Positions 3,301-36,420 of a stretch of DNA of 37,209 bases are shown in pieces; position 1 is the first letter of the stretch, and every line of letters begins with the position of its first letter. Made by a program: the position numbers and the translations under genes. Under the pieces are notes generated by a model. It worked only from the letters and a program-made list of their open reading frames with translations. It had not been told where the DNA came from and did no database searches. This DNA is from Prevotella sp. (GTDB lineage: Bacteria > Bacteroidota > Bacteroidia > Bacteroidales > Bacteroidaceae): assembly GCA_017474845.1 (NCBI GenBank), contig JAFVGS010000003.1:1-37209 (forward strand), written 5' to 3'.

Positions 3301-3810
3301 GCCGTCACCAAACTGGAGGCGGGCAAGCCCTACCTCATCAAGTGGAACAACACGGGTGCGAACCTGACGGAGTCCGAACTCGTATTCAGCAACGTGACTA
3401 TCAAGAACGGCACGAACGACGTAGCGTGCGACCTCGGCAACGAGAGGTCCGTCACCTTCATGGGCACTTACAAGAAACTGTCCTATGATGCTGAAGACCG
3501 CTCCATCCTCCTCCTCGGTGCCAACAACACGCTCTACTATCCGCAGAGCGGAGCCAGCCTCGGTGCACAGCGAGCTTACTTCAAGCTCAGCGGCATCACC
3601 GCCGGCGACAAGGCAGCTGGTGTCCGTTCCTTCGTGCTTGACTTCGGCGACGGGGAAGAGGCAACGGGCATTGGCAATCTAACTGTCAACTCTCAACTGT
3701 CAACTCTCAACTCCGACACATGGTACACCCTTGACGGTCGTCGTCTCAGCGGCAAGCCAGCACAGAAAGGCATATATATAAATAATGGTAAGAAAATAGT
3801 AATCAAATAG
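343..3810 (+). CDS. BspA-like leucine-rich-repeat surface protein with GLUG-like region and C-terminal tail
   Basis: A secreted or cell-surface protein of 1155 aa, probably for adhesion or binding to host or food polymers, which is the known role of BspA-family proteins. A signal peptide covers about residues 1-20 (cleavage after AWA). Two blocks of BspA/LRR_5 repeats follow (about 40-395 and 440-600), each unit with a pattern like I-x-x-x-A-F-x-x-C-x-x-L. Residues about 630-860 hold GLUG-like repeats (GGIAGYN, GGIAGLN, GAIVGDN). A domain starting with LYKDGKWNTLCLPFDV follows from about 930. The last 30 residues (WYTLDGRRL to KKIVIK) match the tails of the next two proteins and resemble a type IX secretion sorting tail; that link is my inference. 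A heptanucleotide repeat sits in frame just before the tail. First gene of a four-gene operon. Confidence 0.88.
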   Translation: MKKILMTIALLCTLAQGAWAEKFTVDGLKYITDSNNPSNVSVTGAADETMAGALTIPSTVTYDGKTYNVTTIGYGAFAWCENITSVTISEGVTTIENDAFGNCEKLESVSIPASVTSVGEYLFLHSDALKTITVADDNTVYDSREGCNAIIETSTNTLVRACNTTVIPSSVTAIGQRAFFSLGGLTSITIPNHVTTIDYGAFYGCKNLVSVTIGDRVTDIPWSCFSECKNLETITLGNGVQSIGNSAFNNCSKLETINFAVDSHLTFIDGYAFYNCGLKSVTLPNSVTTLGETIFSWCRQLKEVTFGSAITSIPFYSFTGCQALKSLYIPAGVVSMGGFFEYCCEQMEDVYCSADPATMYWWSNDDDFAPGKSTRFHVFDKAAWEAKFPDANVTFVQDLVGGGSLTYSVNQGVAAVTGTIEENPTGVLMIPATYTDANGTYPVKTIAANAFKDKTGLTAVSFPSVTVIGPSAFEGCTGLTTLTIPATVSSISTDAFKGCTGLRSLVINANVGNGSVFAGCTNVAAVTFGQGVTTIGAQLFQGFTQLTAVTIPSSVTSIGTEAFDGCSALSSVTFEGDTPPATIGTPLFYGTSSDLRIVVPAGSVDAYKTALDHYASRVECKSWTGNGSESTPYLISHKDELDLLAKRVNEGITYDATWFKVTADITYNYAGLGSTDSNYEAIGCHNGSDRCFKGTFDGQNHVISGIRIYKDGYDDEYQALFGLICRPAEVKNVILADATITGYGSTGAIVGFNPGGTVANCHALSTVTVHNVMSWVHNHGGIAGYNGSRGTITGCTSAASITNADGTLLYAGGIAGLNGDGTISDCIYLGTSLGGSRHVGAIVGDNYDDGIIKTSYFTDTAIQGKDGSVNTLDNAHCAVGSNEATVDATVGPALRDDADNSHFLSLMAARTQALTAVSRTPALNTTVTLALHGRTLYKDGKWNTLCLPFDVTISGSPLDGDGVDVRTLTGASFEAGTLTLNFTASGAVTKLEAGKPYLIKWNNTGANLTESELVFSNVTIKNGTNDVACDLGNERSVTFMGTYKKLSYDAEDRSILLLGANNTLYYPQSGASLGAQRAYFKLSGITAGDKAAGVRSFVLDFGDGEEATGIGNLTVNSQLSTLNSDTWYTLDGRRLSGKPAQKGIYINNGKKIVIK
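3681..3715 (+). repeat. in-frame heptanucleotide tandem repeat in the first surface gene
   Basis: AACTGTC and AACTCTC alternate twice (3681-3708), followed by AACTCCG. The array lies inside the reading frame and encodes the low-complexity linker LTVNSQLSTLNS, exactly between the conserved C-terminal domain and the last 30 residues. One unit is 7 bases, so gain or loss of a single unit would shift the frame and remove the tail. Confidence 0.8.
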
Positions 3811-3813
3811 AAT

Positions 3814-6486: not shown

Positions 6487-6500
6487 ATATTGTTAGCAAA

Positions 6501-9500
6501 ATGAAAAAGATTCTTTTATCACTCGCCTTGCTGTGCGCAGTCGTACAGGGGGCATGGGCAGATTACGTGAGCTACATCTACTACACAGAGAGCAGTAACG
6601 GTGAGACCATCACGAAGCACACGGATGGCCAGGCTTTGAATTCCCCGCTTACCGCAGACGTGATCAGAAACAACCCGGAGGACCGGCTGTACAGTGGTAC
6701 GTATGTACTGAACGAGTCATTCACTTACGACGAACGCATCGTCATCTTCGGCGACGTGAAGCTGGTATTGAAAGACGGCTGCACACTGACGGCCAAGAAG
6801 GGCATCCGCATCAACACCGATGCCTCGCTCACCATCTACGCTCAGAGCGAAGGCGACAACATGGGCAAGATAGTGGCAGAAATCGCCGAGCACGACAAGG
6901 CGGCCATCGGCGGCAACAAGAACTACAAGGCTGGACGGCTCATCATACACGGTGGTGAAATCCAGGCCACCTGTAAGTCTGGCAGCAAGTATGCCGCAGG
7001 CATCGGCGGCGGCTATGGTGACGGTTCGGGCATGGAAGAGATTACCATCTACGGCGGCAAGGTGACGGCGACAGGCGCTTATCTCGGCGCGGGTATCGGT
7101 GGCGGCAAGAACAACAACAACCCTTGCACCATCAAGATCTATGGCGGCACCGTAGAGGCTACGGGCGGCGATTATGGCGCAGGCATTGGCGGCGGCGAGA
7201 ACCGTGCCGGATGGAATACCAATATCTATGGCGGTGATGTCACTGCCAAGGGCGGCAAGTATGGCGCAGGCATCGGCGGTGGTGACGAGGGCAATGGCTG
7301 TGTCATCAACATCAAAGCCGGCACCGTCACTGCCATAGGCGGCTACTTTGGCGCAGGCATCGGCGGTGGCGATGGTATAAAAGATCAAACTGGTGGCACC
7401 ATCACTATCAGTGGCGGCAAGGTGACGGCCACAGGCGGTGAAGCTGGCGCCGGCATCGGCAGTGGTAGCCACTCTGGCGATAGCGGCAACATTACTATCG
7501 AAGGCGATGCTGAGGTGATAGCCACAGGCGGAGAATACGCTTCCGGTATTGGTGCCAATCATTCTGAATGCGCCATAGGAACCGTCATCATCCGAGGCAA
7601 TGCCAAGGTGACTGCTATTGGTGGTGATGTCTTTGGAGCCGGCATCGGAACAGGCAGCGATAAAGGAGAAGGTTCTCTCACCATCAGCGGCAATGCCGTT
7701 GTGACTGCCACAGGTAAATGGGGCGGTGCTGGCATAGGTGGCTGTACGGAATCTCCCGGATTTCCCGTCATTATCGAGAGCGGCGCCACCGTCACGGCAT
7801 ACGGTTCCTTCAAATTAGGCCGTGAAACTGATACATATTATACGTCAGCAGCCATCGGAGGCGGAGCCGAGAAAGAGGATGGCAGCAGTGTCACCATAGC
7901 CAACGGTGCCACGGTGCATCTGTACACTGCGAAAAAAGATGATGGTCGTGGTGTTGACCGCTATGCCATCGGCAGGAGCTACCACAGCAAGAAGACGGGT
8001 TCGCTCACGCTGGGTGACCAGCTGTTGGTGAAGCGTATGAAAGCTGACGGTTCTGATACAAAGTTCATCAGTACTGACAACCGCATCGCGGCATGTCAGC
8101 TCGAAGAATGTGAGCGCTTGGAAATACTCCCCTGCGAGCATAGTGATTACGACTACCAGATCGTGGGCGGCGATGACGGGCAGCACTATAAACAGTGTAA
8201 ATACTGCGCATATAAGTACGACACAGAGGCCCACACCTACAACACAAATGGCTACTGTAGTGTCTGTAACTACAAGGCGACGGAGGTCATTAAGGTAAAC
8301 TTATATAGTGGCGGCAACTCAGGATATACGGCACAAACAATCCGCATGCCAAAGGGCCACAGTTATATCCTTCCCAGCCAGTACTTACTGCCTGAGTACA
8401 TGGTGTTCGAGGGCTGGCTGAAGGATCCCGCCACGGCTCTCACCACCTGGGAGAAACAGGACGGCGAGACGCTCCTCGCCCCCGGCGCAGAGATTACACC
8501 CGATGCCGACGTCAACCTCTATGCCCGCTATAGCTACCACTACGGCACGGAGTGGACATGGGCAGCTACCAGTAATACGGCATCGGCTACGCTTAAGATC
8601 ATCAATCTGGAGGACAACAGCGTAGTGAAGACCATCACCTCTGGGGATATACAGATTAGAGCCCAAAGCATCACGCCAACCGCCAGTGAACCTGGCTCAG
8701 TCATGTGGACCGCTGAGGTCAGCTATACCGACGCAAAGGGACGCAGCTTCAACTTCACCGACGAGCACACCGTGCCTTACTACTTTGGCGTCAGCCTCGG
8801 CGAGGACGACAACACCACAACGCTCAACGAAAATGATAAAGGTATAGTTACCGCCAGCCTCACCGGCCGCACGCTCTACAAGGACGGCAAGTGGAACACG
8901 CTCTGCCTGCCCTTCGACGTCGAGATTGCGGGCTCGCCCCTCGCCGGAGCCACGGTGAAGCAGCTGAGCGATGCCTCGTTCGAGAACGGCACACTGACGC
9001 TCACGTTCGAGGATGCCACCGGCATCAAGGCAGGGAAGCCGTACCTCATCAAGTGGGAAATCGGCGACAACCTCGGTCCCTCCGACCTCGTGTTCACCGG
9101 CGTTACCCTCAGCAAGGACTTGCGCGACGACGAGATTTCGACAGACGATGACGGCACAGCCACTGTCACCTTCATGGGCACCTACAAGAAGCAGTCCTAC
9201 ACCGCTGACGACAAGAGCATCCTCTTCCTCGGCGACGGCAACACGCTCTACTATCCGCAGAGCGGAGCCACCATCGGTGCCCAGCGCGGCTTCTTCAAGC
9301 TCAGCGGCATCACCGCCGGCGACAAGGCAGCTAGTGTCCGTTCCTTCGTCATTGACTTCGGCGGAGATGACGGCGAGACCACGGGCATCATCGAAACAGT
9401 AGCCAATTCTTCACTCTTCATTCTTCATTCTTCATTTAAAGAAGGCTGGCACACCCTCGACGGGCGCAAACTCTCGACTCAGCCGGTACAGAAAGGTATA

Positions 9501-9536
9501 TATATATATAATGGTAAAAAGGTAATAATCAAATAA
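6501..9536 (+). CDS. AGIGGG-repeat surface protein, longer paralog
   Basis: A secreted protein of 1011 aa and a paralog of the preceding gene. The signal peptide ends after AWA (about residue 20). Residues 60-480 are a run of glycine-rich strands with AGIGGG motifs that degrade towards the end (AGIGSG, AGIGTG, AGIGGC), about three more units than its neighbour. Two CxxC pairs (CKYC near 566, CSVC near 586), an InlB-like segment (VFEGWLKDP, NLYARYSY) and the shared LTGRTLYKDGKW domain (from about 787) follow. The tail ends in KKVIIK. The gap to the previous gene is 14 bases. Part of its C-terminal domain matches the first gene almost exactly at DNA level (9303-9360), while other parts differ, which points to gene conversion. 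Probable role: adhesion or polymer binding at the cell surface. Confidence 0.86.
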   Translation: MKKILLSLALLCAVVQGAWADYVSYIYYTESSNGETITKHTDGQALNSPLTADVIRNNPEDRLYSGTYVLNESFTYDERIVIFGDVKLVLKDGCTLTAKKGIRINTDASLTIYAQSEGDNMGKIVAEIAEHDKAAIGGNKNYKAGRLIIHGGEIQATCKSGSKYAAGIGGGYGDGSGMEEITIYGGKVTATGAYLGAGIGGGKNNNNPCTIKIYGGTVEATGGDYGAGIGGGENRAGWNTNIYGGDVTAKGGKYGAGIGGGDEGNGCVINIKAGTVTAIGGYFGAGIGGGDGIKDQTGGTITISGGKVTATGGEAGAGIGSGSHSGDSGNITIEGDAEVIATGGEYASGIGANHSECAIGTVIIRGNAKVTAIGGDVFGAGIGTGSDKGEGSLTISGNAVVTATGKWGGAGIGGCTESPGFPVIIESGATVTAYGSFKLGRETDTYYTSAAIGGGAEKEDGSSVTIANGATVHLYTAKKDDGRGVDRYAIGRSYHSKKTGSLTLGDQLLVKRMKADGSDTKFISTDNRIAACQLEECERLEILPCEHSDYDYQIVGGDDGQHYKQCKYCAYKYDTEAHTYNTNGYCSVCNYKATEVIKVNLYSGGNSGYTAQTIRMPKGHSYILPSQYLLPEYMVFEGWLKDPATALTTWEKQDGETLLAPGAEITPDADVNLYARYSYHYGTEWTWAATSNTASATLKIINLEDNSVVKTITSGDIQIRAQSITPTASEPGSVMWTAEVSYTDAKGRSFNFTDEHTVPYYFGVSLGEDDNTTTLNENDKGIVTASLTGRTLYKDGKWNTLCLPFDVEIAGSPLAGATVKQLSDASFENGTLTLTFEDATGIKAGKPYLIKWEIGDNLGPSDLVFTGVTLSKDLRDDEISTDDDGTATVTFMGTYKKQSYTADDKSILFLGDGNTLYYPQSGATIGAQRGFFKLSGITAGDKAASVRSFVIDFGGDDGETTGIIETVANSSLFILHSSFKEGWHTLDGRKLSTQPVQKGIYIYNGKKVIIK
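9406..9440 (+). repeat. in-frame heptanucleotide tandem repeat in the third surface gene
   Basis: ATTCTTC, ACTCTTC, ATTCTTC, ATTCTTC and ATTTAAA follow each other. They encode the linker NSSLFILHSSF just before the C-terminal tail, the same position as the arrays in the two upstream genes. Confidence 0.78.
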
Positions 9537-9551
9537 TAAAAGAATGTGAAT

Positions 9552-9728
9552 ATGAAAAGAGACTACATGAAGCCCGCCATGCGGGTCTGCGAGTTGAAAC
9601 AGAAGTGCCACATCCTGGTAGGGAGCGACATGGTAGTGAGCAAAACCGTGAACACCATCAAGGGAGAAGAGTTGGACGAAGGAGATGGGTTGGACTATAT
9701 AGGTGGTGGCAGTGGCCTTGGACGGTAA
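9552..9728 (+). CDS. 58-aa peptide with glycine-rich tail, end of surface-protein operon
   Basis: A small protein starting MKRDYMKPAMRVCELKQK and ending GGGSGLGR. Its layout (basic start with a Y-x-K-P segment, then a CELKQKC-x-ILVGS stretch, then a polar and glycine-rich end) resembles short uncharacterised Bacteroidales peptides that I know from memory and could not check. It has no clear signal peptide. A GTG six bases upstream (9546) would add two residues; I prefer the ATG at 9552. It begins 15 bases after the third surface gene and is followed by a strong terminator, so it probably shares that mRNA. Function unknown; a secreted or processed peptide is one possibility. Confidence 0.6.
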   Translation: MKRDYMKPAMRVCELKQKCHILVGSDMVVSKTVNTIKGEELDEGDGLDYIGGGSGLGR

Positions 9729-9758
9729 TGGCCTCAGCTGCCCTGTTGGCAGTCAGGA

Positions 9759-9801
9759 AATAATAGATCCCGAAACGGTCAAACGTTTCGGGATTATTAT
9801 T
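9759..9801 (+). terminator. strong intrinsic terminator ending the surface operon
   Basis: An 11-bp perfect stem (ATCCCGAAACG at 9767-9777, CGTTTCGGGAT at 9784-9794) encloses a 6-base loop. It extends through AATAATA/TATTATT flanks with one bulged base. Being AT-rich on both sides it may also stop transcription arriving from the right. Confidence 0.85.
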
Positions 9802-9807
9802 ATCGGG

Positions 9808-9892
9808 ATCACACGACTCCTGTCCCGGTGTGCGATGTCTTTATGATCTTCACGCTTCTGCTGAATCACACGACTCCTGTCCCTGTGTGCGA
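9808..9892. repeat. two 28-bp near-identical hairpin-forming repeats
   Basis: Copies at 9808-9835 and 9865-9892 differ at one base. Each begins ATCACACGACTCCTGTCCC and ends GTGTGCGA, so CACAC and GTGTG can pair in a small hairpin. They are spaced 57 bases start to start, between the terminator and the transposase remnant, in non-coding DNA. Confidence 0.6.
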
Positions 9893-9918
9893 ATTCCTTT
9901 TCCAGCCTATACCTTATA

Positions 9919-10360
9919 CTATTGCGGAATTGCCCTTACGCGTTCAGGTCTGACGGCACGGACATTCAGCAGCAGCCTATAATCCTTATAGTTGTTGGTG
10001 ACGATGATGCCGCACTTTTGCTTCATGGCCAATACGTACTGCACATTGTCCTCGGTGGACTGGGAGGACAAGTCTGAGTCTGACGGCTTGCGACCCACGG
10101 ACATCTTCAGCGCACTGTCGCTGCGAAGCTGGTTGCAGTCGTTTGCATCCTCGTATCCGCAGAGTATCTGACCGATGCGCTGGCTCACCATCTCCATGTA
10201 AGTGTGATGGATGAATTCCTTTTTGCGGGAATCGGGAATGAGCTGCCCGATTTGCCAGGCCAGAGAGTTTTGCATGTTGCCGATCAGTACGGGTTTTATT
10301 TGAAACCACCAAATATTTTGTGGAAAAGTTGCAAATTAGAGTGCTAGGAACGTTGTGCAC
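9919..10360 (-). pseudogene. IS1380-type transposase fragment joined to a PIN-domain remnant
   Basis: The open frame 10275-9919 (118 aa) is a chimera. Residues about 1-72 match the N-terminal part of IS1380-family transposases (IGQLIPDSRKK, CGYEDANDCNQLRSDSALK, DLSSQ), which are normally above 400 aa. From about residue 74 the sequence changes to a PIN-domain end (DNVQYVLAMKQK, GIIVTNNYKDY, ending VRPERVRAIPQ), typical of VapC-like toxins. A second frame upstream (to 10360, with TRTDRQHAKLSGLA) appears to be the earlier part of the transposase, moved out of frame near 10255. No product is expected to act as transposase or nuclease. The scar marks a past insertion and deletion at the left edge of the island. 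Confidence 0.7.
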
Positions 10361-10383
10361 GTGGAGAATTTTATTTACCTTTG
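10353..10383 (+). promoter_or_regulatory. possible rightward promoter, distal
   Basis: TTG at 10353-10355 and TACCTTTG at 10376-10383 are 20 bases apart. It lies about 90 bases upstream of a better promoter and reads in the same direction, so the island may have two tandem starts. Confidence 0.5.
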
Positions 10384-10472
10384 TAGCCGTTTATCTCATA
10401 ACTAAACTTAAATATAGAATGATGGATGGATATATTTTTTTAGGGCTAAGCCCATAAATAAGTTCATATTTA

Positions 10473-10504
10473 TTTGTGGGTGTCAAAGATTTGATTTATC
10501 TTTG
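10473..10504 (+). promoter_or_regulatory. promoter at the head of the accessory island
   Basis: TTTG at 10473-10476 and TATCTTTG at 10497-10504 are 20 bases apart, a near-perfect Bacteroidetes promoter. The start point would fall near 10511, inside an 18-bp inverted repeat. The leader to the ATG at 10620 is about 110 bases. Confidence 0.65.
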
Positions 10505-10508
10505 CACA

Positions 10509-10526
10509 CAGATTGTAAACAATCTG
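10509..10526. promoter_or_regulatory. 18-bp inverted repeat at the transcription start, operator candidate
   Basis: CAGATTGT and ACAATCTG flank a central AA. The palindrome is perfect and sits just after the -7 box, where a bound repressor would block transcription. The HTH protein of the island (12233-12583) is one possible partner, but nothing in the sequence proves this. Confidence 0.4.
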
Positions 10527-10561
10527 CAGAAACCATAATACAAGTGAATGAGTGCGACATG

Positions 10562-10581
10562 CAAGGCATGGATCTGCCTTG
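10562..10581 (+). other. leader hairpin before the first island gene
   Basis: CAAGGCA (10562-10568) and TGCCTTG (10575-10581) pair around a six-base loop. The hairpin overlaps a possible 12-codon reading frame (ATG 10548, stop 10584-10586). No U-tract follows, so it is not a classic terminator; attenuation or mRNA stability are possible roles. Confidence 0.4.
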
Positions 10582-10619
10582 TATAGTGAATAACTATCCC
10601 CAAACATAAATGAGTGACT

Positions 10620-10985
10620 ATGACACCTGAGAGTTCAGACGAACTGGAAGCGCTAAAGCCGCAGCCGTCTAAAAGAAAGAAGAAACGGCTGCGGAATCAA
10701 AAAACAAAAACTGAGATCAGACTAATAATTGAGGAAGTAGAACAATATTGTAAAGACTGTATGGAATGGAGTGAAGTCAAGCCCATTCTTTATATGCTGG
10801 AGAAACTTCTTCCGAGAGACGGCCCCCAAGAGATAAGGGATGCCATCAAGAGAATAAAGGATGTTTATATGGAAAGGCTGTACGGCAAAAGGATTAATGC
10901 CAAAAATCTGGTGATTAAGCGACCATATATCAAAGGTCCTTTAAATAGTTTCAAAAATAATAAAAGAATAGATTTAAGCAAATAA
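10620..10985 (+). CDS. hypothetical basic protein, first gene of the island
   Basis: A 121-aa protein I do not recognise. Residues 15-32 are very basic (QPSKRKKKRLRNQKTKTE), followed by predicted helices with acidic and basic patches, and a basic C-terminal end (KRPYIKGPLNSFKNNKRIDLSK). The charge pattern would fit nucleic-acid binding, which is inference only. The GTG at 10614 is an alternative start. The stop is 4 bases before the next ATG, so the two genes are translated from one message. The region is more AT-rich than the flanking housekeeping genes, in keeping with acquisition by transfer. Confidence 0.65.
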   Translation: MTPESSDELEALKPQPSKRKKKRLRNQKTKTEIRLIIEEVEQYCKDCMEWSEVKPILYMLEKLLPRDGPQEIRDAIKRIKDVYMERLYGKRINAKNLVIKRPYIKGPLNSFKNNKRIDLSK

Positions 10986-10989
10986 AAAA

Positions 10990-11610
10990 ATGGAGAGCGA
11001 TAATAAGAACAAGAAATATGGTTTTGCCATTTATGGGGACATCCATGTGGCTGGCCCGATGTTTGAAATACATGACAATGGGACTGTGTATATAGACGGT
11101 TTTAGACAGAATGGCCAAAGAGAGGAGGTTGCACATGAGGATCCGTGGGTAATAAAAGATTTGAAGTTCTTTGATATGCAGGACTTTGGTACGGCAGAAA
11201 AGCAGCAGATGCTCGCCAGGGCACTGAGGATGGCTGCGTTGAAGATAGACACCAATAACGGACGCGACTGGTTCGGTCACTATGCAGCATACCGCTATGC
11301 CAAAGAACAGGTAAGAGTCAGCGGCGGTTATGTTGCTTTCTTCAGTGACATAGAGATGCTGATCCCTGATATGCTTCAAGTGAAGAACCCTAATGTCAGT
11401 GGTGATCTTAGATATAAGAACTATACTAAAAGACTTGGAAAGGAGGTCAAGGCCTGGTATGTGGATGAATTGCATCTGCCTCCAATAAGCAATCTCGCTT
11501 ATCGTTCATACGCTTTTGGCTGTAATGAGACAAGATTCAAAAGAATGAAAGGCATTATCAGCGAACTCTATAAATGGATCATTGAACAGAATAAAGCAAG
11601 AAAACTTTAA
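10990..11610 (+). CDS. hypothetical protein, second gene of the island
   Basis: A soluble protein of 206 aa with no signal peptide and no family I can name. The N-terminal part (YGFAIYGDIHVAGPMFEIHDNG) looks like short beta strands; the middle and end are helical with many aromatic and charged residues (KNYTKRLGKEVKAW, KRMKGIISELYKWI). It follows the preceding gene by 4 bases and is closed by a hairpin terminator a few bases after its stop, so these two genes form a small transcription unit distinct from the larger island operon. No motif indicates an enzyme. Confidence 0.65.
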   Translation: MESDNKNKKYGFAIYGDIHVAGPMFEIHDNGTVYIDGFRQNGQREEVAHEDPWVIKDLKFFDMQDFGTAEKQQMLARALRMAALKIDTNNGRDWFGHYAAYRYAKEQVRVSGGYVAFFSDIEMLIPDMLQVKNPNVSGDLRYKNYTKRLGKEVKAWYVDELHLPPISNLAYRSYAFGCNETRFKRMKGIISELYKWIIEQNKARKL

Positions 11611-11614
11611 TGAC

Positions 11615-11642
11615 AAGGCGTAACGAAAGTTGCGCCTTTTTT
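11615..11642 (+). terminator. intrinsic terminator with GAAA tetraloop
   Basis: A 9-bp stem (AGGCGTAAC at 11616-11624, GTTGCGCCT at 11629-11637, with one G-T pair) closed by a GAAA tetraloop and followed by six T. It starts about six bases after the stop of the previous gene. Confidence 0.85.
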
Positions 11643-11653
11643 AGTGGCGTCAT

Positions 11654-11702
11654 GGGGGGCAGAGGCGGTGAAAAAGACTATGTTGGGGGGTGCGGGGGGC
11701 GG
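11654..11702 (+). other. G-run cluster with quadruplex potential
   Basis: Three runs of six G (11654-11659, 11685-11690, 11694-11699) and a further GG at 11701-11702 lie on the same strand in a gap without a convincing gene. An 82-aa open frame crosses the stretch but also crosses the terminator and has no recognisable content. Runs like this are unusual next to the AT-rich genes on the left. A G-quadruplex in DNA or RNA is possible. Confidence 0.4.
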
Positions 11703-11758
11703 CCATCGAAAAACGCAAAAAATCACAAACCTATCATTTTTTTTATTTCTAATTTTGG

Positions 11759-11816
11759 CCCCGGAAACCAGCAAGTAGGGGAAAGTCCGGACCCCCGAAC
11801 GCCGGTAATAACGTTC
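11759..11816 (+). ncRNA. possible structured leader or small RNA upstream of 11830
   Basis: Several short complementary pieces are packed together: CCGGA (11761-11765) with TCCGG (11786-11790), GGGG (11778-11781) with CCCC (11792-11795), and GAACG (11797-11801) with CGTTC (11812-11816). The first two pairs interleave, so they are alternatives or a strained pseudoknot. GGGGAAAGTCCGGAC (11778-11792) resembles the conserved P4-strand motif of RNase P RNA, yet the rest of that RNA is absent. It lies 14 bases before an ATG. TAATTTTG at 11750-11757 could be a -7 box but has no -33 partner. Confidence 0.3.
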
Positions 11817-11829
11817 AAAATAATAAAAA

Positions 11830-12222
11830 ATGAAAGAACTATTTTTGAGAAAGGGTAAAGACGGGAGAATGACCGTCATGACCAAACAAAGGCTGGTGAT
11901 GACATCTATCTTCGTCGATGGTGTGAAAGTGGAGGATGTAGACATGAGCATGGACTTCCCCGTGGCGAAGAAGGCAGAGCGGGAGATGGAGACCATTCGC
12001 AAGAAGGTGAGCCAGGGACTCTTCGACCTGCTGATGATGCAGCTGATGGGGTTCCGCGGAGACATGCAGTATGTGATGGCTGAGAATCTTGTGATATTCA
12101 CTTGCGACCACACGGCCTATACCACTGGTTGCCCCAGCGTCGATACGGTGCTCGACATCTGCTACACATGGATCGCCGACGAGCAGGGGATCATAGTCAA
12201 GAACTTCAAGAACCTTAAATGA
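11830..12222 (+). CDS. hypothetical protein, head of the main island operon
   Basis: A 130-aa soluble protein with no family I recognise. The first third (MTKQRLVMTSIFVDGVKVEDVDM) is strand-rich; the centre (VAKKAEREMETIRKKVSQGLFDLLMMQLMG) is an amphipathic helix; the end contains TCDHTAYTTGC with two cysteines and a histidine. It follows the possible structured leader and begins a series of closely spaced genes to 17629. The ATG at 11830 is preceded by an A-rich stretch, usual for this phylum. No enzymatic motif is seen. Confidence 0.6.
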   Translation: MKELFLRKGKDGRMTVMTKQRLVMTSIFVDGVKVEDVDMSMDFPVAKKAEREMETIRKKVSQGLFDLLMMQLMGFRGDMQYVMAENLVIFTCDHTAYTTGCPSVDTVLDICYTWIADEQGIIVKNFKNLK

Positions 12223-12232
12223 TGATTCGCGT

Positions 12233-12583
12233 ATGACTATGCATGTGTTTGCAACGATAATGGCGCTTTATCCCTTTACCAAGACGGAGGAGATCGCCGA
12301 CGAGTTCGGACTCCCTGTTGTCAAAATCAGAAAGATGGCCAGAATCTGCCGGGTGAGCAAGAATGCGGAATTCCGCAGTGACATCGGACGTCTGAATGGA
12401 CGGAAGTCTGTTGACAGGCTCATAAAACAGAAAATCCGTCGGGAGCAACGAACGGTTAAGTTGTGGAATGACGGTCTGACAATGGACGAGATTGCCAAGA
12501 GACTGCGCATCTCGAAGAAGACGGTTTACAAATATCTGCTCCACGCAAAGAAAAAGGGTGTTAAATTTAACAGACAATCGTAA
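12233..12583 (+). CDS. helix-turn-helix DNA-binding protein
   Basis: A 116-aa protein with two HTH-like regions. The C-terminal one is clear: LWNDGLTMDEIAKRLRISKKTVYKYL (about residues 77-102), in the style of sigma-70 region 4 or resolvase/Hin HTH segments. The N-terminal one (PFTKTEEIADEFGLPVVKIRKMARI) has a similar pattern. No ligand or catalytic domain fits in the remaining length, so it is probably a small regulator or accessory DNA-binding protein of the island. It begins 10 bases after the preceding stop; an in-frame ATG at 12239 is an alternative start. The palindrome at 10509-10526 is a possible target, not shown. Confidence 0.68.
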   Translation: MTMHVFATIMALYPFTKTEEIADEFGLPVVKIRKMARICRVSKNAEFRSDIGRLNGRKSVDRLIKQKIRREQRTVKLWNDGLTMDEIAKRLRISKKTVYKYLLHAKKKGVKFNRQS

Positions 12584-12585
12584 AA

Positions 12586-12975
12586 ATGAAGAAGGAATTC
12601 AGAAAACATTTGCAGAAATACTGCGACATCAGCAACTGGACTCGTATGCACAAGCCCAGAGCTGGCAAGAAGAATGCGGAGGCTGCTGAGAAACTGGCAG
12701 AGGACATCCTCCGTATGTTCCTGAGGAATGAGCCTGGATATGACGGCACTGCCATCATGCTGACGGCTCTGGCTATGGTGAATTCGTATGTGCAGAAGGC
12801 GGTATTCTTCAGCAATGCCTTTGACTTCGACACTGAGATTCTCCTGAAAGACAAGTATGAAGAACTTTTCGGAGGTGAAGCTTGGATGATGGTTCATCAT
12901 GACAGGATACAGTTCCAGATGGAGGACTTTATCAGGGGCAAGGTTAACCCGATGCATAATGAACTGCGGATTTAG
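12586..12975 (+). CDS. hypothetical helical protein
   Basis: A 129-aa protein, unrecognised. It is basic at the start (MKKEFRKHLQKYCD), has an alanine- and glutamate-rich helix (KKNAEAAEKLAEDILRMFL), and ends in an acidic and aromatic section (GGEAWMMVHHDRIQFQMEDF). There is no signal peptide or transmembrane segment. The start follows the HTH gene by two bases, which suggests coupled translation. The 60-base gap after it holds A-rich sequence with repeated AACAG words and no gene. Confidence 0.6.
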   Translation: MKKEFRKHLQKYCDISNWTRMHKPRAGKKNAEAAEKLAEDILRMFLRNEPGYDGTAIMLTALAMVNSYVQKAVFFSNAFDFDTEILLKDKYEELFGGEAWMMVHHDRIQFQMEDFIRGKVNPMHNELRI

Positions 12976-13035
12976 ACAGAGTAACAGAATAACAGTTTAA
13001 AGACAGAAGTACATAAGAACATAATAAATAATAAG

Positions 13036-13593
13036 ATGACAGAAGAAATGTTTGTTGAGAAGCCGGAGGGAAAGCCGGTGAAGAAATTCAAGGCGAGAGT
13101 AAGTCTTTATCCCAATGACGTGGTAGTGGTAAACCCGCAGGAGCCAAGGGAGAGCAATCGCAAGATGATCAAGCAGAAGGGCAAGAGCTCTTTCTACAAG
13201 TCGGAAGGCGAAAAGGAATCAAGCTATTCCATTCATATTAATGTGGATGCGAATGATCCGGATCCCGTGGCAACGATGCAGGAACGATTCAACGAACTCA
13301 CCAAGGGGGAACTCAAAGGAGAGTTGAAGCTTCAGGTAAAAGGAAAGTTGATTTACGACACGCCTGTGTTAAAGGTGTATCTGAACATGACCCAGAAGCA
13401 GGTGATTATCAAGACGACCTTGGACTGTGGGCCTACTATTGAGCGGGAACTGCTGCAGCTTCAGGGAGACATGGGACGCGTAATCGGTGCGAACTACTCA
13501 GAGATCATCAAGGTGTTCAATCAGGCAACGAAGAAGAAGGAAGGCAAAGAGCCTTCTTATCCGACAGCCGAGGAAATCATCGACAGAGTTTAA
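13036..13593 (+). CDS. hypothetical protein
   Basis: A 185-aa soluble protein of unknown family. It has a highly charged first half (KKFKARVSLYPNDVVVVNP, then a lysine- and serine-rich stretch), a strand-like centre (ELKLQVKGKLIYDTPVLKVYLNMTQKQ) and a helical end. The beta-rich centre could be a small nucleic-acid or protein-binding fold, but no conserved motif supports a specific call. It is in the middle of the island operon, between a helical protein and another unknown, and upstream of an OB-fold-sized protein and the primase-like gene, so a part in DNA processing is possible by context only. Confidence 0.6.
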   Translation: MTEEMFVEKPEGKPVKKFKARVSLYPNDVVVVNPQEPRESNRKMIKQKGKSSFYKSEGEKESSYSIHINVDANDPDPVATMQERFNELTKGELKGELKLQVKGKLIYDTPVLKVYLNMTQKQVIIKTTLDCGPTIERELLQLQGDMGRVIGANYSEIIKVFNQATKKKEGKEPSYPTAEEIIDRV

Positions 13594-13607
13594 CGACAAC
13601 TAATTAC

Positions 13608-13625
13608 ACGAATTAAACGAATTAA
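13608..13625 (+). repeat. two 9-bp direct repeats just before a start codon
   Basis: ACGAATTAA occurs twice, end to end, and the ATG of the next gene follows after one base. The related words ACACGAATTAAAAC (14379-14392) and ACAACGAATTTCAC (14319-14332) occur in the gap before the primase-like gene. Confidence 0.6.
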
Positions 13626-13626
13626 G

Positions 13627-13995
13627 ATGTTATATCATTATCTTTTAGACGGTCAGGGTTTGGACCAGAAGGTGGTTGCAGACCTGGTTCTTGAGAACAC
13701 GCTGAGACTGAAAAGGGCTGATATCATGCCTGAGAGGAACTATCAGAATCTGGTAGAGTGTATAGCAAAGTGGCTCGATCGTTGGTTGTCATGCGCTATT
13801 CCAAGCCCCACGGAACTGATAGCGCTATTGTCGGAGGCGTTCCTGCTGGTGATGAAGGGTAAACGTATGACTCCCTCGATGGAGAATTACCTGATCTTCG
13901 TGGATAACATCAGGGCTGACGTCATCAAGGTGCTTGCGAAGGATTATCTGAAGAAGAACAAGGGCATCAGCACGAACTTTCCCTACAAGAAATAA
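13627..13995 (+). CDS. hypothetical helical protein
   Basis: A 122-aa protein, mostly alpha-helical by composition (VVADLVLENTLRLKRADI, LIALLSEAFLLVMKG, IRADVIKVLAKDYLKK) with no transmembrane segment and a basic C-terminus (NFPYKK). I do not recognise the family. It starts one base after a 9-bp direct repeat and is followed after 32 bases by the next island gene. Size and charge are compatible with a small accessory factor for the downstream primase-like protein; this is context inference only. Confidence 0.6.
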   Translation: MLYHYLLDGQGLDQKVVADLVLENTLRLKRADIMPERNYQNLVECIAKWLDRWLSCAIPSPTELIALLSEAFLLVMKGKRMTPSMENYLIFVDNIRADVIKVLAKDYLKKNKGISTNFPYKK

Positions 13996-14027
13996 TCAAA
14001 AAATTAAAGAATTAAAAACAAGCTATA

Positions 14028-14315
14028 ATGGAAAACTTAGTAACAATCGTAGAGGTGGGCGCATACTCTGAGCGCCAGTATCAGAAACAGGACGGTTCAA
14101 CGGAGTACTTCAAGAGCCGTGGGGTGGTGATGAAACGAGGCGGCGATGTCGTCTATGGCGAGATGACGGGAGAACTGGCATCGAAGAACCGTGACACGCA
14201 GTACTACCAGAACCAGCCGTATATCGTGAAGGGTTTCTGGAAGCATCGCACGTGGGGCGAGAACAATGACCGCCACGAGAATGCGTTCTACATCACAGAC
14301 CTGCAAACTCTTTAA
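14028..14315 (+). CDS. hypothetical small beta-rich protein, OB-fold-like in size
   Basis: A 95-aa protein made mainly of predicted strands (LVTIVEVGAYSERQY, EYFKSRGVVMKRGGDVVYGEMTG, PYIVKGFWKHRTW, NAFYITDLQTL). The alternation of short strands with glycines and aromatic residues is what one expects of a single-stranded-DNA-binding OB fold of about 100 aa, and it lies directly upstream of the primase-like gene. I cannot point to a diagnostic SSB motif, so the name is only a suggestion. A gap of 85 bases with a hairpin separates it from the next gene. Confidence 0.58.
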   Translation: MENLVTIVEVGAYSERQYQKQDGSTEYFKSRGVVMKRGGDVVYGEMTGELASKNRDTQYYQNQPYIVKGFWKHRTWGENNDRHENAFYITDLQTL

Positions 14316-14335
14316 AGACAACGAATTTCACGCGC

Positions 14336-14368
14336 TCGGCTTTGCCGCTTTTTAAAGGCGACAGCCGA
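14336..14368 (+). other. stem-loop upstream of the primase-like gene
   Basis: TCGGCT (14336-14341) and AGCCGA (14363-14368) pair, with a further GCC/GGC inside. A run of five T (14449 is not involved; the run is 14349-14353) lies in the loop, not after the stem, so it is unlikely to be a terminator. It may affect translation or stability of the downstream message. Confidence 0.4.
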
Positions 14369-14400
14369 CTAAAAGAATTACACGAATTAAAACTATTTGA

Positions 14401-17088
14401 ATGATAACATTTCAAGAGAATACACATTTTTCTCAGGCTCTTCCCTGCACAAGGGAAGAGTTCTGGGAGCAAGTGAAGAAACCCAGTACGAGGTGGCGCA
14501 TTGATATGCGAAGGGCAATCTTAGCAGCGGTGGAAGCCTCGAAGAATCAGGGCGCAGTAGCTTTGCACAATTTGTTGCAGAACAGCGAATATCAGAAGTT
14601 CCAGATTAAGAAGCAGGGACTGAAAAAAAAGGCTGCCAAGGAGGCATGGGAGAAGAAAACGGATGCAGAGAAGCTTTTGGCCTTTGCCCAGGAGGTCAAG
14701 GATAATCTGCCGGCATTCATCTTTGCATGTCGTGAGTTTGATGAGACGGAAACTGCCAAGGGCGGGATGTTTCGCCACAGAAGACTCGCAGACTGCCATC
14801 TGAATGGACTCTTTATGCTGGATATTGACCACATTGAGAACCCTATGGAGGTTTGGTATAAGATGAGGGAGGACAAAGAACTCATGAAGAGTATCGTCCT
14901 TGTGCATATTACCAGCAGCTCATGCGGCATCCGTATTGTGGCCACGGCAGACATCAATATCGGAAACCTTGCAGACAATCAGATTACTTTGGCTCAGAAG
15001 CTGGGCTATAAGGCTGATGAGAGCTGCATCGATGCCACCAGAAACTCTTTTGCTCCCAAAGAGGAGGATATTATTTACATTAATGAGGATTTACTTTTCA
15101 ATTATTATGATGAAGCATTCGACAAGCGGTTTACGGATGAGTACCGTCAAAAGAAAACTCAGCCGATTCATTTTCAATTTGATGCTGGCGATGTTCCTGC
15201 TGATGTACGTCATTCTCAGGATTCTGTTCTGGCCGCTCAGGCTGCTGTACAAGGGGCTGGCGATGTCAGCGGAATGGATGTGCAGAGAATGGAAAGCATA
15301 AAATGGAGAGGATATGATGTACAGGCTATTATTAATGCTCGGTATGGCGATAGGCTGCCATGCGCAGAGGATAGCAACAGACACAAGGAAAGTCTTAAAC
15401 TGGCCACAGACCTGTTGCTCATGCTCGACGGCGACACAAAACTGGTGCAGAGAATCATCGAGGCACAGCCCTGGGTGCAGGAGATCATTGAGGAAAGAGA
15501 TGAGAATGTCGGGCAGACAGTGGAGAGTGCAGCCTCGTGCGTCGCGGAGAAGGAAAAGAAGTATGCAGGCTCGCTGCCCAGTAAGGCCATGCAGGAGGCG
15601 GTGAAGAGGGTGACGGGGAAAGACTATCGGGAGGTCACTGGCGCTTCTTCAGACCACCCCGCCCATCCGGGCACCCCTCCTGACTCAGGAGGGGAAATAA
15701 ATAGACTGTTGGATCAGTGGGGGGCGGAGATTGAGGAGATGTTTGATGATTTCCCCTTGCTGAGGGATGTGTGCAAAGGATTGAAGAGGTCTCAGTATCC
15801 GGCGGCGATGTTCGTGGGGGCAGGAGCTATGATGACGCTGATGACCAGATGTACTTATAGGTTCTATCATCGCCCGGAGAGGGAAAGGAGATTGAATTGC
15901 TCGCTGCTCATCATCGGACACCCGGCATCAAATAAGTCGATGGCTGATGACATCTGCGATATCCTCATGGCTCCCGTGGAGGCTTCGGACAAGGCAGGAC
16001 TGGCAGCACTCAACCGCTATAAGCAGGACACGAAGAAGAAAGCTGCGAATAAGGAGGGCAAGGATAAGCCCCAGGGTATCATCAGGATCCATCCTGCAAG
16101 AACGAGTAACGGCCAGCTGATTCAGGACATGCTGAATGCGAAGGAGATGGTGGATGGCAAGGAGATCCAGCTGCACATGTTCACTTTCGACACGGAATTG
16201 GATAATTCCATTACGTTGCAGAGCGGCGGATCATGGATCAATAAGCAGAGCATGGAGTTGAAGGCCTTCCATAATGAGGAGGATGGCCAGATGTATCAGA
16301 ACTCGGATTCTCCGGTGGATAAGTTCCATGTGACTTGGAACTATATCTATACAGGTACGCCCATAGCTTTGAAAAAGAAGGTAAATGAGAAGAACTTCGG
16401 CAGTGGCCTCAGCACGCGTCTCACGGTGATCCCCATGCCTAAGACGAACTACGAGATGATAGAATTCCAAGAGAAAACGGCCATAGACTGGCAACGTCTG
16501 GAACGCATGAAGACCTGGGCTTATAAGCTTGATGCACGTGCCGGGGAACTGCCTTTCTGGCCTCTCGTGAAACGCCTCTATGACTGGACTAAGAACCGTA
16601 TGGCCGATTGTGCGGAAGATGATTCTGAGGCTAATGAGTTGATGTTGAAGCGTGTGCCGTATCACGCATTGAACTATGCTGCACCGTTTATAGACATGCG
16701 CCATTTCGAGAGTATGCATCTGGAAGGCAAGTTCTGGGAAGGGGAGTACGAGGTGGATGACACGGACTGGAAACTCTGTGAACTTATCGCCCGCATCCAG
16801 TATGCCACGCAGCAGCACTTCTTCGGCGTGATGGCTGAGAAGTATTTCGATGACATGAACAACGATGTGCAGATTACGGGCAAGCGGCATTATTCGAAGT
16901 CTTTGGAAAGCTATAATCGTCTGCCAGAAGTTTTTACCTTGAAGGATGTCAGGAAGTGCTACGGTTATGATAAAGACACAGCCGTCTATACAAGAATCCG
17001 AAGACTGACTGAAAATGGGGTGGCTGAAAGAATTCAGACGGGTGAAGACAAAGGCAAATATAAGAAAGTAGTTAAGATGTTAGTTTAG
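14401..17088 (+). CDS. BT4734/VirE_N-type primase-like protein with ATPase-like (DUF3987-like) region
   Basis: An 895-aa protein with the layout of Bacteroidetes VirE_N/BT4734 proteins. The N-terminal half carries primase-like motifs: LFMLDIDHI (acidic pair), HITSSSCGIRIVA, and a D-x-x-R-x-S-F segment (DATRNSFAPKEEDIIYIN). A helical segment follows (about 305-365). The second half has a nucleotide-binding loop, IIGHPASNKS (G506 to S513), where N replaces the usual last glycine, and DUF3987-like sequence to about 690. The end (RKCYGYDKDTAVYTRIRRLTENGVAE) looks like a winged-helix domain. Such proteins are known in Bacteroidetes mobile elements and are thought to act in replication; the exact reaction is not established here. 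It is the largest gene of the island. Its stop codon lies inside a tandem repeat. Confidence 0.8.
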   Translation: MITFQENTHFSQALPCTREEFWEQVKKPSTRWRIDMRRAILAAVEASKNQGAVALHNLLQNSEYQKFQIKKQGLKKKAAKEAWEKKTDAEKLLAFAQEVKDNLPAFIFACREFDETETAKGGMFRHRRLADCHLNGLFMLDIDHIENPMEVWYKMREDKELMKSIVLVHITSSSCGIRIVATADINIGNLADNQITLAQKLGYKADESCIDATRNSFAPKEEDIIYINEDLLFNYYDEAFDKRFTDEYRQKKTQPIHFQFDAGDVPADVRHSQDSVLAAQAAVQGAGDVSGMDVQRMESIKWRGYDVQAIINARYGDRLPCAEDSNRHKESLKLATDLLLMLDGDTKLVQRIIEAQPWVQEIIEERDENVGQTVESAASCVAEKEKKYAGSLPSKAMQEAVKRVTGKDYREVTGASSDHPAHPGTPPDSGGEINRLLDQWGAEIEEMFDDFPLLRDVCKGLKRSQYPAAMFVGAGAMMTLMTRCTYRFYHRPERERRLNCSLLIIGHPASNKSMADDICDILMAPVEASDKAGLAALNRYKQDTKKKAANKEGKDKPQGIIRIHPARTSNGQLIQDMLNAKEMVDGKEIQLHMFTFDTELDNSITLQSGGSWINKQSMELKAFHNEEDGQMYQNSDSPVDKFHVTWNYIYTGTPIALKKKVNEKNFGSGLSTRLTVIPMPKTNYEMIEFQEKTAIDWQRLERMKTWAYKLDARAGELPFWPLVKRLYDWTKNRMADCAEDDSEANELMLKRVPYHALNYAAPFIDMRHFESMHLEGKFWEGEYEVDDTDWKLCELIARIQYATQQHFFGVMAEKYFDDMNNDVQITGKRHYSKSLESYNRLPEVFTLKDVRKCYGYDKDTAVYTRIRRLTENGVAERIQTGEDKGKYKKVVKMLV

Positions 17089-17115
17089 TCATTTAGTCAA
17101 TTAGTCATTTAGTCA
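17084..17115 (+). repeat. octanucleotide tandem repeat across the stop codon of the primase-like gene
   Basis: TTTAGTCA (17084-17091), TTTAGTCA, ATTAGTCA and TTTAGTCA follow in exact 8-base register. The TAG stop (17086-17088) is part of the first unit. Expansion or loss of units would change only the gap to the peptidase gene, which starts at 17129. Confidence 0.8.
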
Positions 17116-17128
17116 TTTTGTTTTTTCA

Positions 17129-17629
17129 ATGGAAGATGTAAGTATTAATAAAAGTATCCACCTCTCCGAGCATTTTACGCTCGGGGAGGTAACCAAGAGC
17201 AAGCATGCAGATATCTACAACATCCCCAGTCATGTTGCTATTGAGAACTTGAAAAGCGTATGCGAGTGGTTGGAGGAACTGAGGTTCACCTACAATGCCC
17301 TCTATTGCCTGAAGCCCGGCGAGGATTATGAGACCTCAAAGAATGTGGAACCGATTCTCATTAACAGCGGTTATCGGAGTCCGGAGCTGAATAAGAAGGT
17401 GGGAGGCTCTGCGACGAGCAATCACCTGACGGGCTGCGCCGTGGATATCAGAGTCGCTGGCATCGAGCAAGCCTTACGCTATGCGGTGATCCTGATGGAC
17501 TATGCCGACGAGACCAAGCAGGATTATGATGAAATCCTCATCGAGCGAAACAAATGCGGCGGCTACTGGCTGCACTTAGCGGTGCGTCCCAAGGATAATC
17601 GACGAAAGACGATGTTTATTCAAAAGTGA
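17129..17629 (+). CDS. M15-family D-Ala-D-Ala peptidase
   Basis: A 166-aa zinc peptidase of the M15 type, which cuts D-Ala-D-Ala or related peptidoglycan cross-links. The metal ligands are visible: H99 and D106 in SNHLTGCAVDIR and H149 in YWLHLAV; INSGYRSPELN (about 79-89) holds the substrate-binding arginine region. There is no signal peptide, so export would need a partner or lysis, as with phage endolysins. It follows the primase-like gene by 40 bases, which contain an 8-base repeat, and is the last gene of the island. Pairing of a VirE_N/DUF3987 protein with a cell-wall hydrolase is a recurring layout in Bacteroidetes from memory. It may release or help transfer the element, or be a prophage relic. 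Confidence 0.85.
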   Translation: MEDVSINKSIHLSEHFTLGEVTKSKHADIYNIPSHVAIENLKSVCEWLEELRFTYNALYCLKPGEDYETSKNVEPILINSGYRSPELNKKVGGSATSNHLTGCAVDIRVAGIEQALRYAVILMDYADETKQDYDEILIERNKCGGYWLHLAVRPKDNRRKTMFIQK

Positions 17630-36322: not shown

Positions 36323-36388
36323 TTCCGTTTGTGATTTTGTGATTTGTGATGCAGGTTATTTTTTCATCGTCATTATTTTAATGAAATA

Positions 36389-36420
36389 TTTGGTGGTTTC
36401 AAAGAAATGCCTTATCTTTG
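36389..36420 (+). promoter_or_regulatory. strong promoter of the 47-aa gene
   Basis: TTTG at 36389-36392 and TATCTTTG at 36413-36420 are 20 bases apart, the best match to the consensus in this part of the window. The start point near 36427 leaves a 30-base leader to the ATG at 36457. Confidence 0.7.

Follow-up and report, generated by a model that had tools for sequence, protein, structure and literature searches.

What kind of element is the block of co-directional genes, including a primase-helicase gene and a phage-type endolysin gene, on Prevotella sp. contig JAFVGS010000003.1? The window considered here is the 37,209-nucleotide stretch of that contig. A first-pass annotation proposed a phage satellite, a degenerate integrative element or a defence island. 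There is support for a satellite-like element or a degenerate integrative one: the block has moved as a unit, has its own presumed initiator and origin-like array, belongs to a family in which the phage antirepressors Rha/KilAC occur in sister copies, and carries a phage-type endolysin; a role in defence is weighed below. On balance the block is probably, though by no means securely, a SaPI/SCC-like replicon island that lacks an integrase, carries a tag-coupled sensor and belongs to a multi-copy family of rumen Prevotella and relatives. Two features are new: an 8-bp tandem array right behind the primase-helicase gene, and pair-specific tags on the upstream neighbours of sister copies.

Limits and layout of the island

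Comparison with a second copy in another assembly (locus L117) places the island at 10297-17629. Homology begins at 10297, which corrects the left edge of 10473 given earlier; on the right, BLAST likeness ends at 17616 and by eye extends to the stop codon of the last gene at 17629. Island G+C is 0.47, against 0.55 and 0.54 in the flanks. The leader (10297-10613, forward strand) is A+T rich (G+C 0.33), and its 317 bp match L117 at 98.7% identity; further left there is no homology. It contains a promoter-like TATCTTTG at 10497-10504, which we take to be the Bacteroidetes promoter motif, and the palindrome previously noticed at the presumed start point is present at 10509-10526 (CAGATTGT-AA-ACAATCTG, read by eye). 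ORF calling gives ten forward-strand genes (g1 to g10) spanning 10614-17629, in agreement with the first-pass count of about ten.

Outside the left limit lies a transposase remnant (9919-10275, reverse strand; DDE_Tnp_1_4, E 7e-15). The earlier reading of this scar as IS1380-type with a PIN-like tail thus stands for the transposase fragment; the IS1380 type and the tail have no tool match and are readings by inspection. A check for att-like repeats, as suggested earlier, found no direct repeat of at least 14 nt common to both edges. As first described, the ten genes have no integrase, transfer or capsid gene in Pfam and PHROG profile searches beyond weak cross-matches: among capsid families only a fusellovirus one is matched, by g1 and below its cut-off (E 0.014), and the helix-turn-helix of g4 cross-matches those portions of resolvases, transposases and small terminases that bind DNA.

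Distribution and movement

The block at L117 has unrelated flanks, and its primase is 77-89% identical to that of the window, which indicates that the block has moved between genomes. In rumen Prevotella relatives a genome has several diverged copies of the island; the window's own genome has seven primase matches, the window's copy included. BT4734-like primases are common in Bacteroidales genomes under labels such as VirE or DUF3987, and one scan returned 412 related stretches. The present primase family is unevenly distributed, occurring in 50 of 301 genomes of the family (the window's own among them), and island genes are absent around glgP of relatives in 20 stretches of 5-17 kb. The block is therefore not a fixture of one locus in all related strains, the finding that would have spoken against mobility.

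The primase has no match among 50,697 phage and 72,556 plasmid records. Scanning IMG/VR by pattern gave first none and then two contigs, the visible parts of which look chromosomal. PF00589 integrases are not associated with island copies in six genomes: they occur on only two copy-bearing contigs, 8 and 14 kb away, many contigs being short. The search for an empty site with conserved flanks found none. Read depth taken from record titles gives no clear excess for copy-bearing contigs, with values in one MAG of 12.4 (L118), 12.2 (L167) and 15.8 (L153), and in another of 37.0 (L126), 40.0 (L128) and 36.1 (L182).

The primase-helicase and its downstream array

The presumed replication initiator, g9 (14401-17088, 895 aa), combines by its sequence three fused modules: an archaeo-eukaryotic primase (AEP) of the BT4734 family, an MCM-like AAA+ helicase and a C-terminal domain that varies among copies; secondary structure in a structure model suggests that the last of these is a winged helix. 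The BT4734-like N-terminal match (PF08800, E 3.3e-7) is above cut-off and is accompanied by intact, conserved acidic and Gly/Ser motifs: D141, D143, G176 and D206 are invariant in the family and S173 is found in at least 90%. The original VirE_N/DUF3987-like label thus proves apt, with DUF3987 itself sub-threshold (E 0.012).

Adjoining the g9 stop codon on its 3' side is a tandem array (17084-17121, forward strand) of 8-bp units, TTTAGTCA. It consists of four units, of which one carries a mismatch, plus a partial unit, and these are presumed to be origin iterons. Such arrays lie behind 67 of 108 copies, compared with 24 of 447 flanking host genes, and in most copies sit between g9 and the hydrolase gene. 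The unit differs among most copies and covaries with the winged helix beyond the share explained by the helicase core (raw correlation of unit with core, 0.18); part of this covariation may be shared inheritance, because the array lies next to the winged-helix region. Copies within a genome need not be distinct: L176 and L191, from one isolate, have the same unit and the same winged helix. The array at the stop codon, together with the covariation, has the layout of SaPI/SCC-type origins.

Other genes of the island

The last gene, g10 (17129-17629, 166 aa), is the cell-wall peptidase recognized at the outset (Peptidase_M15_3, E 8.6e-14) and is of the phage endolysin type (phrog_894, E 5.7e-29), a type found in 267 phage records. 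By eye, neither a signal peptide on g10 nor a holin is seen. The terminal hydrolase is exchanged among copies: at 95 loci it is M15 in 64, a P5-like family in 12, DUF5675-type in 2 and none seen in 17.

Upstream of g9, g8 (14028-14315, 95 aa; family at 42 of 95 loci, own included; dN/dS 0.03) is a candidate single-stranded DNA-binding protein judged by size, position and the look of its sequence. It has no Pfam match, and the description as OB-fold-sized is upheld in length only. The helix-turn-helix protein reported earlier is g4 (12233-12583, 116 aa), which matches many HTH families, the best being Sigma70_r4_2 (E 1.1e-8). The best call for the third gene is 11830-12222 (g3, 130 aa, dN/dS 0.19), a small conserved protein of cluster c8 with homologs in 12 further loci; g5 (12586-12975, 129 aa) is conserved in L117 and in L032, whose contig is shared with L118. 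Most copies have an unrelated 107-aa protein (c2) in place of g6 (13036-13593, 185 aa): of 95 loci, 58 have c2 only, 19 the g6 type only, none both and 18 neither. A single-gene indel accounts for g7 (13627-13995, 122 aa), which has no match in L117 and corresponds to a 374-bp gap (13629-14002) in the alignment of the two copies.

Tag pairs of the upstream genes

The first two genes may form a signalling pair. Putative sensor or partner A, g1 (10614-10985, 123 aa), is identical in L117 and ends in the tag GPLNSFKNNKRIDL; partner B, g2 (10990-11610, 206 aa; dN/dS against L117, 0.16), begins with the tag GPMFEIHDNGTVYI, followed by a conserved domain, and has homologs with other tags in sister operons. 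A structure model of g2 was too low in quality for use.

In sister copies, the products of adjacent upstream genes often carry common short tags specific to the pair. At the family level the C-terminus of one product and the N-terminus of its neighbour, the BASS-type arrangement, share a tag in 22 of 372 cases versus 2 of 294, and the own partner ranks within the top 5% in 21 of 41. The window's own pair is not significant in plain pairwise tests (score 22, rank 18 of 42); a tag profile made from partner-B N-termini places the C-terminus of g1 third of 898. Sequence comparison thus supports tag pairing for the family and, more weakly and by profile, for g1/g2. Sensor-like genes, WYL and S24 among them, precede the g1/g2-type pair in sister copies. 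A survey by cluster (one member of each scanned; 95 loci, only 54 with at least 5 kb upstream) found WYL at 7 loci, S24 at 5, HsdR at 4, HsdS at 3, DNA methylase at 3, Vsr at 3, and at 4 a family with one sub-threshold HIRAN match (E 7e-5). No NLR/STAND was identified among the upstream proteins scanned.

Proposed mode of action and alternatives

In the preferred reading, replication would proceed as it does in the modules of SaPI and SCC: the winged helix of g9 would bind its own array, the AAA+ ring would melt this origin, the primase would start DNA synthesis and g8 would coat single strands. The g1/g2 pair would be a tag-coupled sensor/adaptor that switches the operon on, most plausibly upon phage infection, and g10 would help release, for which the trigger phage would provide holin and capsid. 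Differing winged-helix/array pairs could allow copies to coexist in one cell; since there is no integrase, new positions would come from recombination with resident copies. Replication, trigger and tag function are all inferred. A bolder proposal, possible though doubtful, is that the islands are chromosomal replicons of a new class. Each lineage would have many diverging islands, most of them with a separate winged-helix/8-bp-iteron specificity that lets several coexist per cell; they would be fired by phage sensors via matched short signalling tags in a receptor-adaptor-replicon-lysin relay, and would spread integrase-free by recombining with resident copies.

The same genes could make up an abortive-defence operon, mobile as ordinary defence islands are, in which sensors signal via matched tags, the primase-helicase either senses foreign DNA or copies it to excess, and cell death is brought about by the wall hydrolase. 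The tag pairs do look like the signalling motifs that occur in pairs in immune receptor/effector genes (PMC12261475, excerpt), and the WYL, S24, restriction-type, methylase, Vsr and HIRAN-like genes upstream, the exchange of the terminal hydrolase and the several different copies per genome all fit. This is nonetheless unlikely: PADLOC found no complete defence system among six island proteins (g1, g2, g6, g8, g9 and g10) and four sister proteins, matching only g9 in the island (PrimPol, E 4e-7; RTasVirE-PriCT2, E 1.3e-4) and, among sisters, the WYL protein and weakly the c29 protein; the hydrolase lacks a signal peptide or holin partner by eye; no NLR/STAND was identified in the upstream proteins scanned; and defence has no need of a copy-specific, origin-like array.

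That array might instead be an operator or translational spacer regulating the lysin gene, with g9 autoregulating through its winged helix and no origin present. Winged helices often act as repressors, the array mostly precedes the hydrolase gene, and its covariation would suit any binding site. Arrays are, however, retained beside M15 and P5-like hydrolases alike, the primase and helicase motifs of g9 would be superfluous, and the origins of SaPI (PMC7581432) and pRN1 (PMC4234260), in the excerpts of both sources, lie at the same place; this reading is less likely still. Least probable is that the copies are mere remnants: replication and lysis modules left behind by phages or plasmids now lost, shuffled by recombination and without an independent existence. 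The missing integrase and structural set, the split primase genes at L036, L047, L052 and L056, the incomplete motif in 7 of 65 M15 ORFs, some of which lie at contig ends, and the patchwork that copies L169 and L176 form within one isolate point that way; against it stand purifying selection on the window's genes, g9 included, the match to loose patterns for the primase in 90 of 95 copies and for Walker A in 93, and the movement of the block between the window and L117.

Comparison with known systems

The island resembles SaPI/PICI elements in being small, in its phage-related genes and in the short direct repeats directly behind its presumed initiator gene; in SaPIs the C-terminal domain of the initiator helicase reads such repeats immediately downstream of its gene (PMC7581432, excerpt). 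It differs in having no integrase (ten genes; six genomes for PF00589), no att repeats at its edges and no packaging or capsid-redirecting gene with a significant PHROG or Pfam match, in the fusion of a BT4734-type primase to the helicase, in its several diverged copies per genome and in the endolysin within the operon. Structural genes of a prophage are likewise absent from the ten genes, the fusellovirus cross-match of g1 being weak. With the Cch/LP1413 operon of SCC it shares a small candidate single-stranded DNA-binding protein upstream of an MCM-like helicase and repeats behind the helicase gene; it differs in the fused primase, in the lack of a sequence match to solved relatives, and in having no ccr serine recombinase, no recombinase catalytic domain being present among the families listed for g1 to g10. 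The pRN1 initiator offers the same domain order, AEP-helicase-winged-helix, with an origin just downstream of the gene (PMC4234260, excerpt); that origin is a stem-loop on a free archaeal plasmid, whereas the island is chromosomal and has repeats.

BT4734 is one unplaced AEP family, and g9 shares PF08800 and the fusion to a DUF3987-type/MCM-like ATPase with the BT4734-like primases and DUF3987-type helicases of integrated elements, for which a role in element replication is predicted; the excerpted part of that account does not feature the island, its arrays or its tags (PMC5862659). For g9-type primases this prediction has so far been the only role; should the array be an origin, these anonymous genes would turn into testable replicons whose specificity can be predicted, and rumen Prevotella genomes would contain several resident elements that may respond to phages. 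Like bacterial amyloid signalling sequences and effector-associated domains, the tags are short, pair-specific motifs common to the end of one product and the start of its neighbour; in contrast to those systems, no NLR was seen among the proteins scanned and the genes downstream are a replicon and a lysin, so that the tag pairs would carry receptor-to-effector motif signalling beyond NLR systems to mobile replicons.

Island genes and limits

The ten island ORFs (g1-g10) are co-directional and span 10614-17629, on contig C85 of a 2.15-Mb assembly that is 58.9% complete. Three of them match Pfam families above cut-off: g4 (an HTH), g9 (895 aa; a BT4734-like primase domain), and g10 (an M15 peptidase); g1-g3 and g5-g8 have no Pfam match above cut-off. 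PHROGs classes g10 as an endolysin, and its relatives occur in 267 of 50,697 phage records, whose first name words include Bacteroides (57) and Prevotella (15).

Movement of the block, whose genes are under selection, is seen in another assembly, RUG12181, where window positions 10297-17616 correspond to positions 6278-13288 of the sister locus L117; the flanks are unrelated, with only scattered 40-60-base matches beyond the block. Identity to L117 is high in the front part (leader, 98.7%; g1, 100%; g2, 94.7%; g3, 97.7%; g4, 97.4%; g5, 93.9%) and lower across the aligned stretches of the rear part (g6, 84.6%; g8, 92.7%; g9, 77-89%; g10, 82-86%), and dS does not exceed 0.18 in any of g1-g5 but spans 0.39-1.08 across g6 and g8-g10; this unevenness indicates separate histories for the sensor half (g1 and g2 being a putative sensor pair) and the replicon half. 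The gene g7 is absent from L117, leaving a clean single-gene gap. A transposase remnant adjoins the block at its left edge, and comparison of 76 downstream tails of copies gave no common end. Among six genomes, a copy and a PF00589 match share a contig only on C32 of the window's own genome (8 kb apart) and on one contig of a second genome, where the match lies 14 kb from a weak copy match.

Several features surround or punctuate the block. Three tandem large secreted-looking proteins with nearly identical signal peptides are encoded at 343-9536; the two that were scanned, the first and the third, carry BspA-type leucine-rich repeats and beta-helix repeats, respectively. A pair of 35-nt direct repeats (ATCACACGACTCCTGTCCC..., 89%), 57 nt apart, occupies 9808-9899, flanked by a terminator-like hairpin on one side and the transposase remnant on the other. 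The leader's outer end bears TTTGAAACCACCAAATATT (10295-10318, also at 36384-36407), which belongs to a repeat present in many genomes of the genus and looks like part of a divergent promoter. The 219-bp gap between g2 and g3 (11611-11829) contains a terminator-like hairpin at 11615-11638, one of a number of such sites not above chance, that may set the sensor pair apart from the replicon part.

The array behind g9

Directly 3' of the g9 stop, at 17084-17121 on the (+) strand, lies an array of the 8-bp repeat TTTAGTCA, whose three exact occurrences on both strands of the window all fall within it. Once 6 of 114 entries had been removed as duplicates, 91 of 108 copies scored above the 99% level for base-shuffled sequence, and period 8 with a score of at least 11 was seen in 67 copies, against 0 of 59 stretches behind M15 genes and 24 of 447 behind flanking host genes. 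Of five copies examined in the window's own genome, four have period-8 units (TTTAGTCA, TTTCCTAT, ACTTATGC, and AAATGCGG) and the other has an array of period 7. One unit is common to two copies (L176 and L191) of isolate ne3005.

The array unit tracks the predicted C-terminal winged helix of g9. Pairs with winged-helix identity of at least 0.9 have a common unit in 12 of 12 cases (7/8 or better), and pairs below 0.6 almost never do. In 64 of the 67 copies, the partial correlation of unit with winged helix, helicase core held, is 0.133 (p 0.0005), and that of unit with helicase core, winged helix held, is 0.015 (p 0.33). Between the window and the sister locus L119 the core is 92% identical, the winged helix 37%, and the units match at 3/8. 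No covariation with the winged helix was seen for the gene 3' of the array (41 copies); this makes plain linkage a less likely cause, but the array is nearer, so linkage may still contribute.

Distribution and gene exchange

Of 60 genomes searched, 22 have relatives of g9, the window's own among them, and all 22 belong to one genus; across the family, relatives at E<=1e-10 were found in 50 of 301 genomes and 12 of 30 genera. The window's own genome has them at seven places including the window, two of these short or weak, and another genome (G018) has at least 19 matching pieces, a split gene counting more than once. A two-pattern scan of GTDB representatives picked out 458 stretches, 412 of them relatives, and the best 80 were retained. 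Judging by record titles, the named relatives (Prevotella, Xylanibacter, and uncultured Prevotellaceae, Bacteroidaceae or Bacteroidales) come chiefly from samples of the rumen or other parts of the ruminant gut. The phage and plasmid records searched contained no g9 relative; in IMG/VR a first scan gave 0 copies and a second gave 2, both with visible neighbours of chromosomal type. On one of these contigs (L197) the copy is followed by ADP-ribosylglycohydrolase-, sirtuin-, and Nudix-like genes (names read by eye), and its visible part looks chromosomal rather than viral.

Joint analysis covered 95 loci: besides the window, 82 came from two scans of collections and 12 from genomes. The terminal hydrolase is M15 in 64, P5-like in 12, and DUF5675-type in 2, with none seen in 17, some of which end at contig ends. 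The g6 position holds a g6-type gene in 19 loci, the 107-aa substitute c2 in 58, both in 0, and neither in 18. Upstream of sister copies, on the same strand, are clusters of Rha/KilAC (15 loci), WYL (7), S24 (5), HsdR (4), a family with one sub-threshold HIRAN match (4), HsdS (3), DNA methylase (3), and Vsr (3), as judged from one or two members scanned per cluster and with at least 5 kb upstream present at 54 of 95 loci; divergent HU-HIG-type genes lie 3.7-9.1 kb upstream in nine loci. Copies recur at the same chromosomal neighbourhoods, such as those flanking an rsmF-topB block in L139 and L196 (gene names read by eye). In one sublineage (L047, L052, and L056) two ORFs, of 255-257 and 665-666 aa, take the place of a single primase gene, with the break at a similar position in each locus, which suggests two subunits, not decay. 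Two copies of isolate ne3005 (L169 and L176) are mosaics of each other, with identity varying between about 78% and 98%, a pattern like that left by gene conversion.

Tags between neighbouring proteins

In these operons, adjacent proteins often share an operon-specific tag of 15-20 residues, placed C-terminally in the first protein and N-terminally in the second. Among selected genes, 22 of 372 pairs in operons passed (score at least 34, shuffle p at most 0.005) versus 2 of 294 pairs from the 3' flanks (Fisher p 1.3e-4), although the 22 include spurious-looking cases (such as L131, L140, and L168) and three share one isolate (L169, L176, and L191), so independent cases are fewer. The same test passed 0 of 372 reversed comparisons, 4 N-N pairs, and 1 C-C pair. 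The own partner ranked in the top 5% for 21 of 41 candidate pairs, in partner families picked after the first pairs had been inspected.

The g1/g2 pair of the window fails the plain pairwise test (score 22, rank 18 of 42). With a profile of the g2 tag class, which was picked after inspection and contains g2's own tag, the g1 end ranks 3rd of 898 C-termini; L064 and L045 rank above it, and the identical L117 ties with it. As read by eye, the operon partner of all four carries a g2-class tag. Of the same class, L131 ranks 12th and L124 is outside the 15 matches listed. At L138 (5326-7578) a middle protein has two different tags, one per neighbour, and at L137 (2300-5327) one tag is on three consecutive genes, on the first of them as read by eye; this layout is like a relay. 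The tag pairs resemble effector-associated domains (PMC8195603) and the amyloid signalling motifs that adjoining genes carry in matched pairs (PMC12261475).

Proposed mechanism and known replicons

We favour reading the block as a replicon island, in which the sensor pair would switch the island on, g9 would open its own array and prime synthesis, the candidate ssDNA-binding protein g8 would coat single strands, and g10 would lyse jointly with a phage-supplied holin. Against the replicon reading, read depth given in the record titles of two assemblies showed no clear excess at copies, and neither an integrase nor a circular form was seen. Literature searches on the island, the tags, and iterons, covering mainly titles and abstract openings and few subscription journals or preprints, turned up no account of the island family.

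The proposed replicon island has parallels in known replicons. In SCC pattern 1 a ssDNA-binding protein is paired with an MCM-like helicase (PMC7581432); the pRN1 origin lies downstream of an AEP-helicase-winged-helix gene (PMC4234260); and the satellite PLE likewise uses iterons (PMC7145576). SaPI origins occupy the same place as the array, and Rep recognizes them through its C-terminal domain (PMC7581432); the C-terminal domain of g9 is predicted to bind the array.
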